DNA of 64,000 nt, taken from Psychromonas aquimarina ATCC BAA-1526 (GTDB taxonomy: Bacteria; Pseudomonadota; Gammaproteobacteria; Enterobacterales; Psychromonadaceae). The stretch's first letter is position 1. Each line of letters opens with the position of its first letter. Below the pieces are notes generated by a model. That model was not told the origin of the DNA. It ran no database searches and saw only the letters and a program-made list of their open reading frames with translations. The stretch spans positions 62,001-126,000 of the forward strand of contig NZ_KE386791.1 in NCBI RefSeq assembly GCF_000428725.1. The letters are read 5' to 3'. Position numbers and translations under genes: made by a program. Shown in pieces: positions 1 through 5,386 of the stretch.

Positions 1-673
1 TGGAATTAAGTCCTTAATTCTTGATGATTATAAAGATATCACAGCAATTCTCGAAGAAATTGAGAGCAGGTATAAAAAGAAAACAATATTCATTTCTGGA
101 AGTGCAGAAACTTACGAACCGTATGACAAAAATGAAGCACTTGGATTTATACATGTGTTATCAAAGAAAATTATTGAACAAAATTTTCGTATTGTAAATG
201 GTTTTGGGTGGGGGGTTGGTAGTTCTGTTATTAATGGTGCATTAGAAGCAATAAATGATAAGCCTTTAAAGTTTTCAGAATCACAATTAGTGCTCAAGCC
301 ATTTCCACAATTTGAATCTGGTGAGAAGAAATTGCCTGAACTATGGGAAGAGTATCGGGAAAAAATGATTTCATTAAGTGGAATATCAATATTTTTGTTT
401 GGAAATAAACTTGTAAATAATGAAGTGGTTGATGCCATTGGACTTATCCGAGAATTTGAAATATCTAAAGCAATGGGAAACCTTTGTATTCCAATTGGCT
501 CTACTGGCTATGCGACTAAAATAATATCTGATTTAATCCTTAATTCACCTGAAAAATATTTTGAAAATAGCAAAGTTGCAGTACCTCTCATAGAAAAATT
601 AGCCGATTCAAATATCCCGTTACCTGAAAAGGTAGATGTAGTCATTGAGTTATTAAATAAAATAGTACAATAA
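1..673 (+). CDS. thsA: ThsA, C-terminal SLOG part (Thoeris defence effector), partial
   Basis: The left end is cut by the window. Reading in frame from base 2 gives 223 residues before the stop, with no N-terminal start visible. The visible part is a SLOG (Rossmann-like) domain: IFISGSAE, then a glycine-rich loop GFGWGVGSSVINGALEAI, then SGISIFLFGNK, EFEISKAMG and PIGSTGYA. These follow the C-terminal half of Thoeris ThsA as I remember it. In that family the SLOG domain binds a cyclic ADP-ribose signal made by ThsB and switches on an N-terminal SIR2 NADase that depletes NAD+ in infected cells. The SIR2 half would lie to the left of base 1. A ThsB gene follows 13 bp downstream, which supports the call. 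The stretch is AT-rich compared with the core genes. Confidence 0.85.
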   Translation, partial: GIKSLILDDYKDITAILEEIESRYKKKTIFISGSAETYEPYDKNEALGFIHVLSKKIIEQNFRIVNGFGWGVGSSVINGALEAINDKPLKFSESQLVLKPFPQFESGEKKLPELWEEYREKMISLSGISIFLFGNKLVNNEVVDAIGLIREFEISKAMGNLCIPIGSTGYATKIISDLILNSPEKYFENSKVAVPLIEKLADSNIPLPEKVDVVIELLNKIVQ

Positions 674-686
674 AGGAGTTAAAATT

Positions 687-1127
687 ATGGCAAGGCAGGT
701 ATTTTTTAGTTTTAAATATGAAGACGTTTCAAGGGCTATGATTGTAAGGAATAGCTGGGTAACTCAAGGTAAACAAGCCGCTGGATTTATAGATGCGGCT
801 GATTTTGAAGAAGTAAAAAGAAAAGGCGATACAGCCATCAAAAACTGGATAGATAAGCAACTAGAAGGTACTTCTGTAACTGTCGTCTTAGTAGGTGAAA
901 AAACTTGTAGTAGTCGCTGGGTAAAATATGAAATTGAAAAGAGTATAGAGCGAGGTAACGGTCTATTGGGGATTGATATAAGTAAAATTAAAGACTTTCA
1001 AGGTAAGACTGCGTCACGGTGTGGTGAAATTCCAAATGGCTATGACTTCTATCTTTGGAATAATGGGAATGGTTATAAAAATATGGGGGACTGGATTGAA
1101 AAAGCAGCAAAAGATGTTGGTAGATAG
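687..1127 (+). CDS. thsB: ThsB, TIR-domain signal-producing protein of Thoeris
   Basis: This 146-residue protein is a single TIR-like domain of the MTH538/DUF1863 type. It opens with VFFSFKYEDV and VRNSWVTQG, runs through TSVTVVLVGEKTCSSRWVKYEIEKSI and ends with a tryptophan-rich tail (GDWIEKAA). These blocks match the Thoeris ThsB pattern FFSFHY..DV / RN.WV / TSVT.VLIG / RWV.YEI..S. In the family, ThsB senses phage and converts NAD+ into a cyclic ADP-ribose isomer that activates ThsA. The glutamate in WVKYE is the candidate catalytic residue. The start is supported by AAGGAG nine bases upstream of the ATG. It sits 13 bp after thsA and is surely co-transcribed with it. Confidence 0.88.
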   Translation: MARQVFFSFKYEDVSRAMIVRNSWVTQGKQAAGFIDAADFEEVKRKGDTAIKNWIDKQLEGTSVTVVLVGEKTCSSRWVKYEIEKSIERGNGLLGIDISKIKDFQGKTASRCGEIPNGYDFYLWNNGNGYKNMGDWIEKAAKDVGR

Positions 1128-1296
1128 CACCAGTACATAATATATAAAACATAATAAATTGCTACACATGAATTCGATACCATCGTCTCTGATCAATACG
1201 TTATGCGCCAGTTCAGAATCACCAATTTTGTTTATTACTTTCGACTTCAAGGAAGGCTATCTCTGATTACTGAAGAAATAGCTTTTGGGGGGCTTT

Positions 1297-2436
1297 ATGG
1301 CTGGAATGATGAAAAGAAAATTTAATAATGAAACTGGGAAGTACATGAATAATTTTACCTCTCAATTGAATAAAGTTGTAGAGGCATTACCAAGTGAGTA
1401 TGACAAACAAGTATTGCTCGATTTGTATAAACAATTTTATCCTAACCAATGGAGTGAACTTATTGGGCGGTATGAATACTACAGGGCAAAAGATGAACAA
1501 TTGGTTAGTGTTGGTAAAAAAAGGCGATACTATCATAAAAGCCCTATTAACTTCTTTTATAGCTTGGCTAAAGTAAAGCTAATTTGCTCAGATGGCTATA
1601 GGTTGAAGCATAAAAATAACTATATAGAAGAAAATAGGGTTCAAGCTGTAAATTATTTAAAGGCAAAGATACAAAAGCCTAAGTGTATCCCCGTGGGTCT
1701 ACAATTTACAGATCCATATCACTTAGATATTTTTATATCGGCTTATAACAGGCATGGTTCCACGCAGAATGAAAAGATTGAAATAGTTAATGAATTGAAG
1801 AAATTTAAAACTAAAGAAACGATCATTTTTTTTCAGAAAATTAATGATGCAGAAAGAAACACTCAAATACGAAATATGGCATTTGAGCACTTGCAGTCCA
1901 TTGGTGCTTATGTTCAAAAGAGGAGGGGCTTTAAAGGTAAAAAAAAAGATTATTATCACAGTACTGATAAGTTTATTGTAACTCCTGCAGATTTGGCTGA
2001 TAGGTTAAAGTGTGGTGGAATTCAGTCTAAGAAAGAGTTTGATGTATTTATCTCTCATAGTTACAAAGATAATAAATTAGTCAATGAAGTGATGGTTGAA
2101 CTTAATAAACATGGCCTAAGTATTTATTGTGATTGGACTAGTGATAACGATTTTCTAAGACGAAATTTAGCCAGTGAATATACAGAAATAGTATTAAAGG
2201 CACGGTTAAGCCAATCTAAATATGTTTTGTTTTTACAAACAGATAATTCTGTAGATTGTGGCGGAGATTTCTTATCAAAATGGGTTAAAATGGAACTAGA
2301 TCATGCAATTAAAAATGGCAAGGATATTTTTTGTATCAATGTAAGTAGTCAGTTACCTTTATTTTCAGAAGTTACATCAAGCGCTGATAAATATAAACTT
2401 ACAACAGATGAGGCCAACAAGCTTCGTATACAGTGA
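1297..2436 (+). CDS. TIR-domain protein with an uncharacterised N-terminal half, probable second Thoeris TIR
   Basis: About 379 residues. Residues ~245-370 form a classical TIR domain: FDVFISHSYKD (strand A and box 1), IYCDWTSDNDFLRRNL, SKYVLFLQT, and WVKMELDHAI, where the glutamate aligns with the usual catalytic position. The first ~240 residues are lysine-rich and helical looking (RRYYHKSPINFFYSLAKVKL, then a region with IIFFQKINDAERNTQIR). I recognise no family there. The frame opens with a TTG at 1285, but the ATG at 1297 follows a GGGGGG tract and is the more likely start. ATGs at 1306 and 1309 are alternatives. It lies 169 bp after thsB, so it may have its own promoter. Thoeris loci often carry several TIR genes feeding one ThsA. 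A second signal producer is an inference. Confidence 0.7.
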   Translation: MAGMMKRKFNNETGKYMNNFTSQLNKVVEALPSEYDKQVLLDLYKQFYPNQWSELIGRYEYYRAKDEQLVSVGKKRRYYHKSPINFFYSLAKVKLICSDGYRLKHKNNYIEENRVQAVNYLKAKIQKPKCIPVGLQFTDPYHLDIFISAYNRHGSTQNEKIEIVNELKKFKTKETIIFFQKINDAERNTQIRNMAFEHLQSIGAYVQKRRGFKGKKKDYYHSTDKFIVTPADLADRLKCGGIQSKKEFDVFISHSYKDNKLVNEVMVELNKHGLSIYCDWTSDNDFLRRNLASEYTEIVLKARLSQSKYVLFLQTDNSVDCGGDFLSKWVKMELDHAIKNGKDIFCINVSSQLPLFSEVTSSADKYKLTTDEANKLRIQ

Positions 2437-2511
2437 AAGTAAATATGATCAAGTTTTACATTTTAGAATAAATAAACCTTTGATTTTGTGGTAGATAAAA
2501 ATAAAAGGCCT

Positions 2512-2722
2512 TCATCGGTTGGGCGTTATATACTGTTCTTGATACTGCTTTTCCAGCCAGTTGTTAAATCGACTTCTTTCCAGCCTGGGGTGCGTCTTCC
2601 CATTTTTATCGGTTGTGGAAATAACCCTTGATTCACCCAGCACCATACATGGTGCGTGAACGGTTTATTTTTTCACAAACATCGGTAATAGATAGGATGT
2701 TGTTACTGATTGTTTTGTACTG
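2512..2722 (-). pseudogene. alpA: AlpA-family phage/island transcriptional regulator, frameshifted remnant
   Basis: Read on the minus strand, three consecutive frames give pieces of one AlpA-like winged-helix protein. They are NNILSITDVCEKINRSRT, then WVNQGLFPQPIKMGRRT with PGWKEVDL, then NNWLEKQYQEQYITPNR and a stop. The joins fit two single-base losses, near 2650 and near 2559. The pattern W-x3-G-x-FP-x-P-x3-G-x-R-x3-W is diagnostic of the AlpA (CP4-57 regulator) family, which controls excision of integrated elements. No start codon survives. It lies just beyond the TIR gene and just before a core dehydrogenase, so it probably marks the boundary of the element that brought in the Thoeris genes. 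Confidence 0.72.
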
Positions 2723-2771
2723 CTGCTACTTGTATGCGGCACCGTTTAGCAAAACGATTAGGCATGAAATA

Positions 2772-2803
2772 AAAAATCCGGTGCCCAGGGCGCCGGATTT
2801 TTA
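2772..2803. terminator. Bidirectional rho-independent terminator
   Basis: The stem AAATCCGGTGCCC/GGGCGCCGGATTT is flanked by an A-run on the left and a T-run on the right, so it can stop transcription in both directions. It ends the minus-strand alcohol dehydrogenase and shields it from the accessory block. A second hairpin (ACCCGTTT/AAACGGGT with a following T-run on the plus strand) sits at 2824-2850 against the dehydrogenase stop codon. Confidence 0.75.
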
Positions 2804-2849
2804 TGATTAAAAACAGCTGTTGATTACCCGTTTAATAAACGGGTAATTT

Positions 2850-3998: not shown

Positions 3999-5386
3999 AA
4001 GTAACCTCTAGATTTGTTGTAAAAAATATTTATGTATAGTTGATTAATTCGTATTATTAACGCCGCCACGATGAGCAAGAACATTCAAACATTCAGCTGA
4101 CCAGATATAATTCTCAGTGATTCTGCTGAGTGCTTATATAGGGTGCAGACCGTAAATAATTAAACTTCTGTTATTATCAATAAGATTTATTCTAATCCGT
4201 TTCTAATTTACGGCTATAAAAACACTTAATTATAAGTAGTTGAAATAAAGTGTTTTTAGTTTGACTAATCTATATAGATAAGCAGTTAAATGCTGACACC
4301 TTGTGGATTAATTAATTGAAATCAGTTTATTTACTAATCCATACAAAAAGTGTGAGCTATAGCTACAGAATAAAAATAACTGCGATTTCCAAAAAAATCG
4401 TTTACAAAATCTGTTGTTTTTATGTTTTTATGACTGCTGGGAAAATCGTTGTTTTTGCTGATTAAATTTTGATTACCTGGGGGCTGTTCAGATTAAGTTT
4501 GTTAATTGTAATCCCGTTTTATAATCTGTTTTTATATTTGTCGGTGCTTAAAATTAACTGTGTCAATAAAGGCGCATAACAGATAAAGCAGTTTTGCCGT
4601 CCATTTTTCTGTCTTTAAAGTGCCGCAAATACAAATGCTTATACTTTGCTGGTGAATTTTAATCGTGTGTAGAGTTAATTTAATAGTTACTGCCGACTTG
4701 TTATAAGAGATCTGATTTAAGCTTATTTTAAAGGTCCATTTGTTGTGGTGGTGAACATTTGAATGGTGTGGTTAAATTGCGGGATTTTGATGTTGTTTAT
4801 TTGATATTTCTATATTTATCTATTTGCGTAGAAAACTAAAACAACAGCAAATAAAAAAAATTATTTTCTAACTTCTGATTTTGAACTGTCTGAAAACAGG
4901 CTTCTGATCCCCTCATTTTGAGCTTTGTCACACTTTTAAGTTTTCCTTTGCCGGCAGTTTTTAAGCAGTTTTCTGTGTTTTTTAACAATCCGGTCACTTC
5001 CCATTACTCTTTGTAACAAAGTTTGTTTTTCAATTTGTTATGTTGTTGATCGGCAGGAGGGAGTAAGTCTGCCGCTGTTTCTGGACTGTCTGATGCTGCT
5101 GCTGAAGGCAGGCCCGAAAGGGCATGTTTGAAATTTTACTGTTGAATTATTAATTATCATCTGTATTGCTTGTTTGTATTTGGCTGTCGGTATTTCTCTG
5201 TGAAAAAGCTGAGTAATATTTAAATGCCAGAGTTGTAACTCTAACTTCCGTGTTATAAAAATGACAAGTCTTTGCCTTTAATTTATAAATAGTTATGAAT
5301 TTATCTTTGTTAGCATGCGCTCCCTAAGTGATCAATTGAGCATCACTAGGACATATGAAAGATAATTGTTAGAAGGATTAATTGTA
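3999..5386. other. 1.4 kb intergenic stretch without recognisable gene
   Basis: This AT-rich region separates the divergent dehydrogenase and cpdB genes. I find no convincing reading frame, tRNA, repeat or known RNA in it. It must hold the promoters of both flanking genes. An inverted repeat AGTGAT-N9-ATCACT at 5327-5347, just ahead of cpdB, is the only small symmetrical element I would flag as a possible operator. The length is unusual for this otherwise compact window. Confidence 0.5.

Follow-up and report, generated by a model that had tools for sequence, protein, structure and literature searches.

A Thoeris locus with one ThsA and two different TIR proteins on an inserted island of Psychromonas aquimarina

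Thoeris systems that carry a long and a short TIR protein have been characterized in two Gram-positive bacteria. In the S. aureus 08BA02176 system (ThsA-B1-B2), the phage major head protein is bound by ThsB1 (F242/E318), which recruits ThsB2; catalysis by ThsB2 (F6/E81) is needed, while the catalytic residues of ThsB1 itself are dispensable (PMC12578639; preprint, PMC11312562). In S. equinus CNU77-23, catalysis by ThsB1 (F260/E336) is needed, and ThsB1 alone suffices against one phage (PMC12578639). Head-protein binding was shown for the whole ThsB1, and the term "N-terminal" does not occur in the main text of that article (PMC12578639). The signal of type I Thoeris is defined as 3'cADPR, or 1''-3' gcADPR, in the part of PMC12948488 that deals with it. 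Two systems with two TIR proteins, both Gram-positive, have been shown to sense capsid proteins; the locus described here adds an example from another lineage. The tested system of B. cereus MSX-D12 (ThsA-ThsB; structures 6lhx and 6lhy) has, to our knowledge, one ThsB and no long ThsB.

We analyzed a stretch of 64,000 nucleotides from Psychromonas aquimarina ATCC BAA-1526 (contig NZ_KE386791.1, positions 62,001 to 126,000; G000:C1:62001-126000), hereafter the window, together with the contig to its left, which was read as stretch L002 (window position = L002 position minus 16000). At the left edge of the window, thsA, a short thsB and a long thsB are neighbours on one strand and form an intact-looking locus. 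Like the type I systems of S. aureus and S. equinus, it combines a STALD-containing ThsA, a long ThsB with a C-terminal TIR domain and a short ThsB. Its type of Thoeris is already known, and the locus itself is solid but largely ordinary; the more interesting side would be the family of its long TIR protein, should a shared function of these apparently recombining putative sensors be demonstrated.

The three genes and their characterized homologues

The first gene is cut by the window edge, and only its 3' part lies inside the window (positions 1 to 673, plus strand). The corresponding open reading frame (ORF; 2-673) is open at its left end and encodes a STALD/SLOG domain (Pfam PF18185, E 7.9e-72), in agreement with an earlier note on this DNA that had read it as the SLOG half of ThsA. 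Of the checks suggested in that note, extending the contig to the left and an HMM search both bore it out. The full gene (L002:15231-16673 = G000:C1:61231-62673, plus strand) starts with a GTG codon 770 bp left of window base 1 and encodes 480 amino acids (aa), with an N-terminal SIR2 NADase domain (PF13289 SIR2_2, E 1.5e-30) followed by the C-terminal STALD/SLOG domain (E 1.2e-71), the architecture by which ThsA of type I Thoeris is recognized. The protein matches the PADLOC ThsA model PDLC00407 with 654 bits across residues 3-478 of 480, and solved ThsA chains align with it nearly end to end (8wc0, E 1.2e-165; 6lhx, E 2.2e-137). The reading as ThsA stands because the full gene has a SIR2 domain and matches ThsA; together, the two domains, PDLC00407 and the ThsA chains in the PDB rule out that the first gene is something else. 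By alignment, residues N111, H151 and R376 correspond to N112, H152 and R371 of B. cereus ThsA (BcThsA), so that the asparagine and histidine of the SIR2 active site and the arginine of the SLOG pocket are kept; we take H152 to be a catalytic residue. The N112A and R371A variants of BcThsA, and the roles of N112 and R371, are described in a section of PMC10022894. A terminator-like hairpin (L002:15176-15197) ends 33 bp upstream of the thsA start codon and is perhaps an attenuator or a small RNA; it may also be due to chance, since 4 such sites were found and 1.9 (sd 1.4) occurred in shuffled sequences. Rfam gave 0 matches at gathering thresholds on L002 and the window.

The short thsB gene (687..1127, plus strand) begins 13 bp after the thsA stop codon and encodes a 146-aa TIR protein of the B. 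cereus ThsB (BcThsB) class. It matches PF08937 ThsB_TIR (E 2.7e-24), the PADLOC ThsB model PDLC00431 (E 1.2e-58, residues 1-145 of 146) and the B. cereus ThsB structures 6lhy and 9b7d (E 2.3e-28). The order of the SLOG gene and the ThsB TIR gene and their spacing are thus as previously noted. The protein has F6/F7 and, at the catalytic position, E82, which aligns with E85 of BcThsB, named as the catalytic glutamate in a passage of PMC10022894. At least one ThsB TIR protein with the catalytic glutamate therefore stands beside thsA, as type I Thoeris is defined. The homologous ThsA and short ThsB of B. cereus MSX-D12 share the active-site residues with those of the window; the 6lhy chain differs in length (194 aa, against 146 aa). 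Relatives of the short ThsB at E 1e-10 were present in 9 of 394 genomes of the order, its own included, and a search of viral contigs with the short ThsB as single query yielded no confirmed relative.

The long thsB gene follows 169 bp downstream on the same strand (1297..2436, ATG at 1297, stop at 2436), as the earlier note had it, and encodes 379 aa: a helical N-terminal half (residues ~1-240) and a C-terminal TIR domain (~246-348) with the residue pair F251/E333. The TIR domain was recognized by PF13676 (28.8 bits; cut-off, 28) and by PF08937 at its cut-off of 21.2. The ORF is intact, and its predicted fold is confident (pLDDT 88.4). The note had further described the N-terminal half as novel, a claim that did not hold: the ThsB models of PADLOC-DB 2.0.0 (2023) already span it (PDLC00426, residues 21-352; PDLC00425, residues 3-348 of 379) and match 33 of 33 members of the long ThsB family alignment, and a layout of ThsA, long ThsB and short ThsB has been characterized in S. 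aureus and S. equinus (PMC12578639). F251 is kept in all 33 aligned members and E333 in 32, the exception (L036) having a gap there. Pfam contained no family for the N-terminal half of the window protein, and five Pfam families each matched 1 of 31 N-terminal halves. Foldseek searches returned no match at E 0.001 or below, either for the whole model, whose top-ranked matches were mostly TIR domains, or for the N-terminal half alone. Over residues 138-215, the candidate region for a HEAT-like alpha solenoid, a further comparison gave only weak helical-repeat matches; as it bore little on the rest of the half, a known fold is neither claimed nor rejected. A comparison of the three window proteins with NCBIfam, ThsA being represented by its 223-aa part, was uninformative; for the long ThsB it returned a weak Retron_TIR match (20.8 bits; cut-off, 600) and two weaker ones. 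In a phage collection, a single record matched the long ThsB, weakly and over the TIR part only. The N-terminal half was present in 2 of 398 genomes of the phylum, namely the window's own and, as a broken copy, G734. The matches in Pfam, PADLOC and the PDB thus support the core of the earlier reading, a Thoeris locus with two different TIR proteins beside one ThsA, both TIR proteins belonging to PADLOC ThsB families (PDLC00431 for the short; PDLC00425 and PDLC00426 for the long).

As the S. aureus and S. equinus proteins were represented by proxies, the comparisons with them are to be read accordingly. The proxies, L013 and L012, were chosen because their residue numbers equal those in PMC12578639. 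L013, a plasmid record labelled Stenotrophomonas rhizophila, encodes a 344-aa long ThsB (F242/E318) and a short one with F6/E81; L012, a plasmid of Mammaliicoccus lentus, encodes a long ThsB with F260/E336 and a short one with F6/E81. The calculated masses of the L013 long protein (41.8 kDa) and the L012 short protein (23.4 kDa) equal values printed for the tagged S. aureus proteins (PMC12578639), which is loose support, because the proteins in that article are tagged and their masses vary within it. Judged by these proxies, the window long ThsB is homologous to ThsB1 over both the N-terminal half and the TIR domain, including the F/E pair (37.9% identity over 94% of its length with L013; 40.3% over 91% with L012), with a spacing from F to E of 82 residues instead of 76. 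The short proteins, in contrast, differ in class: that of the window belongs to the B. cereus class and not to that of S. aureus ThsB2, with 28% identity to the L013 short over 107 aa, no blastp match to the L012 short and 53% identity to the BcThsB-class short of L045.

An AT-rich island at the 3' end of a norR-like gene

An AT-rich island of 7.27 kb carries the Thoeris genes. It is inserted at the 3' end of a gene (L002:9953-11503) that we call norR-like because of its GAF, sigma-54-activator and Fis-type domains and an adjoining flavorubredoxin-like gene. The insertion is evident from direct repeats and from an empty junction in a relative. The right repeat (window 2739..2841, plus strand) copies the last codons of the norR-like gene and the terminator region that follows, and is 89% identical to the left repeat (L002:11470-11575); as placed by the repeat finder, a 38-nt piece has its second copy at a distance of 7269 bp (97% identity) and a 74-nt piece at 7266 bp (84%). 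Within the genus, the norR-like protein was found in 11 of 24 genomes and an Fe-alcohol dehydrogenase in 5 of 24 (E 1e-150; own genome included). In G207, which has the most similar norR-like protein (91%), the matches to these two genes are 81 bp apart, and the junction matches the left side up to L002:11564 and the right side from L002:18739, with an overlap of 90 bp. As the island is absent from this relative, an ancestral origin was rejected.

The G+C content is 0.328 in the Thoeris stretch and 0.338 in the island, against 0.468 in the left flank (L002:4572-11564) and 0.442 in the window from 2739 to 64000. The three genes are therefore AT-rich compared with their surroundings, as had been noted earlier, although the property is not unique to them, since positions 4001-5250 of the window, beyond the island, are about as AT-rich (G+C 0.30-0.35). 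The insertion site does not coincide with a tRNA gene detectable by ARAGORN, as none was found in the window, L002 or L003.

A decayed AlpA-type excisionase/HTH gene (2471..2710, minus strand) adjoins the right repeat on its inner side. At the DNA level it shares 83% identity with an intact gene of 90 aa in the same genome (L059:9550-9822, minus strand), which matches PHROG excisionase families (best E 2.2e-08) and whose region also contains a DNA methyltransferase and a phage-type replication endonuclease. In that second element (L059:7428-9822; G000:C21), the intact AlpA-type gene stands beside the DNA methyltransferase and a 281-aa protein without a PHROG match; related AlpA genes thus adjoin two different cargoes in one genome. 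Among the ORFs of the island, with a minimum length of 80 aa left of the window and 60 aa inside it, no integrase was seen. The remainder of the island is taken up by five other genes (L002:11721-14626, minus strand), one of which encodes a TerB-like protein (PF05099, E 5.7e-09), whereas the other four had no Pfam match at E 0.01; the three of the five that were scanned with PADLOC gave no match.

Probable wiring of two TIR proteins to one ThsA

The three proteins have no single nearest relative common to all of them. Among the long-bearing loci with ThsA, the window ThsA and long ThsB are nearest to gammaproteobacterial loci, namely those of P. rubra (L027; ThsA 52%; one part of its split long ThsB, 61% across 180 aa), Kosakonia (L017; ThsA 48%, long 49%) and Photobacterium (L018; ThsA 47%, long 47%). 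The short ThsB has its nearest relatives in L045 and L028, from Clostridia-type bacteria (53% each); with the shorts of L027, L017 and L018 its identity is no higher than 31-45%. The wider search retrieved closer short relatives beside ThsA in stretches without a long ThsB match: G141 (L088, 14 kb; short 81%, ThsA 51%), the Zymomonas plasmid pZM32 (L090, 8.4 kb; short 60%, ThsA 45%) and G023 (L089, 13 kb; short 53-56%, ThsA 71%). The last of these shows the highest ThsA identity seen, so that the idea of shared nearest kin of ThsA and the long ThsB was abandoned. The short TIR class of the window thus stands with ThsA alone elsewhere. Since ThsA and this short class occur without a long ThsB in these three stretches, they look like a self-standing pair to which the long TIR protein appears to have been added as a further sensor. 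The three gene kinds of the window were found within one locus in 7 of 38 other loci (L017, Kosakonia sacchari; L018, uncultured Photobacterium; L023, Acinetobacter sp.; L025, Butyrivibrio proteoclasticus; L028; L044; and L045), which differ from the window in gene order and strand, in some cases by extra TIR genes, and have shorts 37-53% identical to that of the window.

We consider it very likely that we are dealing with type I Thoeris and that its ThsA is fed by the two TIR genes or, at the least, by the short one. By homology with the characterized systems, its trigger, signal and anti-phage effect may be pictured as follows. During infection, a phage component, probably the major head protein by analogy with S. 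aureus, would be sensed by the long ThsB, probably through its helical N-terminal half; we infer the role of this half because the text of PMC12578639 does not map the binding part of ThsB1. The short ThsB would also sense, separately or in the same complex as the long one. One or both TIR domains would, by analogy, turn NAD+ into the cyclic ADP-ribose isomer 3'cADPR (= 1''-3' gcADPR), and both sensors would probably switch on a single self-sacrificing, NAD-destroying enzyme, ThsA.

This raises the question of whether two TIR proteins on one ThsA widen the range of phages recognized or must act together. Most likely, the two act on ThsA as inputs that are separate or cooperate in part. More specifically, we favour, though not strongly and with about an even chance of being right, two largely self-sufficient TIR inputs, because ThsA and the short ThsB look self-standing and the long ThsB looks like an addition. 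Separate promoters find no evidence, since promoter-like sites were fewer than in shuffled sequences (11 found; 20.3 expected), and the stretch between the short and long genes (1120-1300) had no other genomic copy beyond a 21-base match (E 0.87).

A division of labour as in S. aureus is possible but rather unlikely. The long ThsB would then be a capsid receptor that needs no catalysis of its own and that recruits and activates the short cyclase, both proteins being required. The layout is alike, with the three genes as same-strand neighbours, and the long protein is homologous to S. aureus ThsB1, which is bound by the major head protein (Mhp) and recruits ThsB2 (PMC12578639). Nevertheless, the window short is of the BcThsB class, found with ThsA but without a long ThsB in the G141, G023 and pZM32 stretches, and the transfer of the S. 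aureus wiring is uncertain because this class, as judged by the proxies, differs from that of ThsB2. On the tree of the long ThsB family, moreover, the short class changes at least eight times (simplified labels, counted without a shuffle comparison), so that no obligate pairing of long and short proteins is visible. The long ThsB also keeps both active-site residues; this does not prove activity, because the catalytic residues of S. aureus ThsB1 are dispensable (PMC12578639).

The favoured reading of two inputs also competes with the improbable one that the long TIR gene was acquired beside the pair and is uncoupled from this ThsA or decaying, so that only ThsA and the short ThsB work. The wider gap before the long gene (169 bp, against 13 bp between thsA and the short thsB), the self-standing pairs elsewhere, the nearest ThsA seen (G023) lacking a long neighbour and the split long genes of the related loci L027 and L050 would all fit such a passenger, but the long gene has an unbroken ORF, its TIR residues are conserved, its fold is confidently predicted, and long ThsB and ThsA co-occur in 17 of 39 loci. 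That the SIR2/SLOG and TIR genes have a role other than defence, for example as a metabolic NAD regulator, is very improbable: the proteins match over their full length ThsA and ThsB families with tested anti-phage members (PMC12578639), and the inserted island that carries the genes also holds the decayed excisionase gene of phage type.

The long ThsB family and its effectors

A scan of genome contigs for the long ThsB family yielded 42 loci. Gene context was compared across 39 loci whose long member has 340 aa or more: the window itself, 32 of these 42 loci, and 6 loci on plasmids, selected among 51 matching records; the 10 loci dropped had a split gene (L027, L050), fragments (L040, L043, L046), or a TIR-only match or none (L054-L058). 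Besides the long thsB genes of L027 and L050, which are each split into two ORFs, a split gene was seen in the thsA of L053.

ThsA was present in 17 of the 39 loci, each time with a short TIR protein. Another 15 loci lacked ThsA and had a small membrane protein (118-219 aa) in its stead (L011, L014, L021, L024, L031-L034, L038, L039, L041, L042, L047, L049 and L052), 3 of them with a TIR-SLOG protein in addition; 1 locus had a TIR-SLOG protein only, and 6 had none of these effectors within the DNA stretch covered. Where 3 kb or more was available on each side (24 loci), the numbers were 13 with ThsA, 8 with the membrane protein, 1 with TIR-SLOG only and 2 with none. The membrane protein matched the PADLOC candidate PDC-M50A in all five proteins scanned (L021, L033, L014 and two in L011), the remaining ones being assigned by phmmer similarity to these five, which suggests a membrane-effector version of Thoeris. 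A literature search for PDC-M50 paired with TIR found no paper.

A tree of 39 long ThsB sequences, with 21 of its 36 inner branches starred and with long branches leading to L051 and L047, shows six or more changes of the effector label (ThsA or membrane protein); as for the short class, labels were simplified to one per locus, with some loci unlabelled, and the count was made without a shuffle comparison. The window long ThsB joins, with weak support (84/26), that of Vibrio chagasii (L011), a locus with the membrane protein and no ThsA within the stretch covered. Across phyla, the long TIR family pairs with at least three kinds of effector: the SIR2-STALD ThsA, the small membrane protein of PDC-M50A and the TIR-SLOG protein. 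This wider survey hints that the long TIR protein is an interchangeable sensing part. We tentatively propose, while thinking it somewhat more probable that matters are otherwise, that the protein with the helical N-terminal half and TIR domain is a portable receptor for phage structures that would be freely reshuffled across phyla among various short TIR cyclases and three or more kinds of effector, a single sensing module thereby serving several outputs.

Proteins of 613-625 aa that are alike lie near long ThsB genes in four loci (L019:3384-5261, L031:2387-4264, L033:2774-4615 and L052:113-1957). In the three that were scanned (L019, L033, L052), a TIR domain is combined with one of SLOG type (LD_cluster2/3, STALD), and this TIR-SLOG protein is a possible further effector type. 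Finally, a caspase-domain protein (L042:8842-9813; PF00656, E 1.5e-14) is encoded ~1.7 kb from a long ThsB relative.
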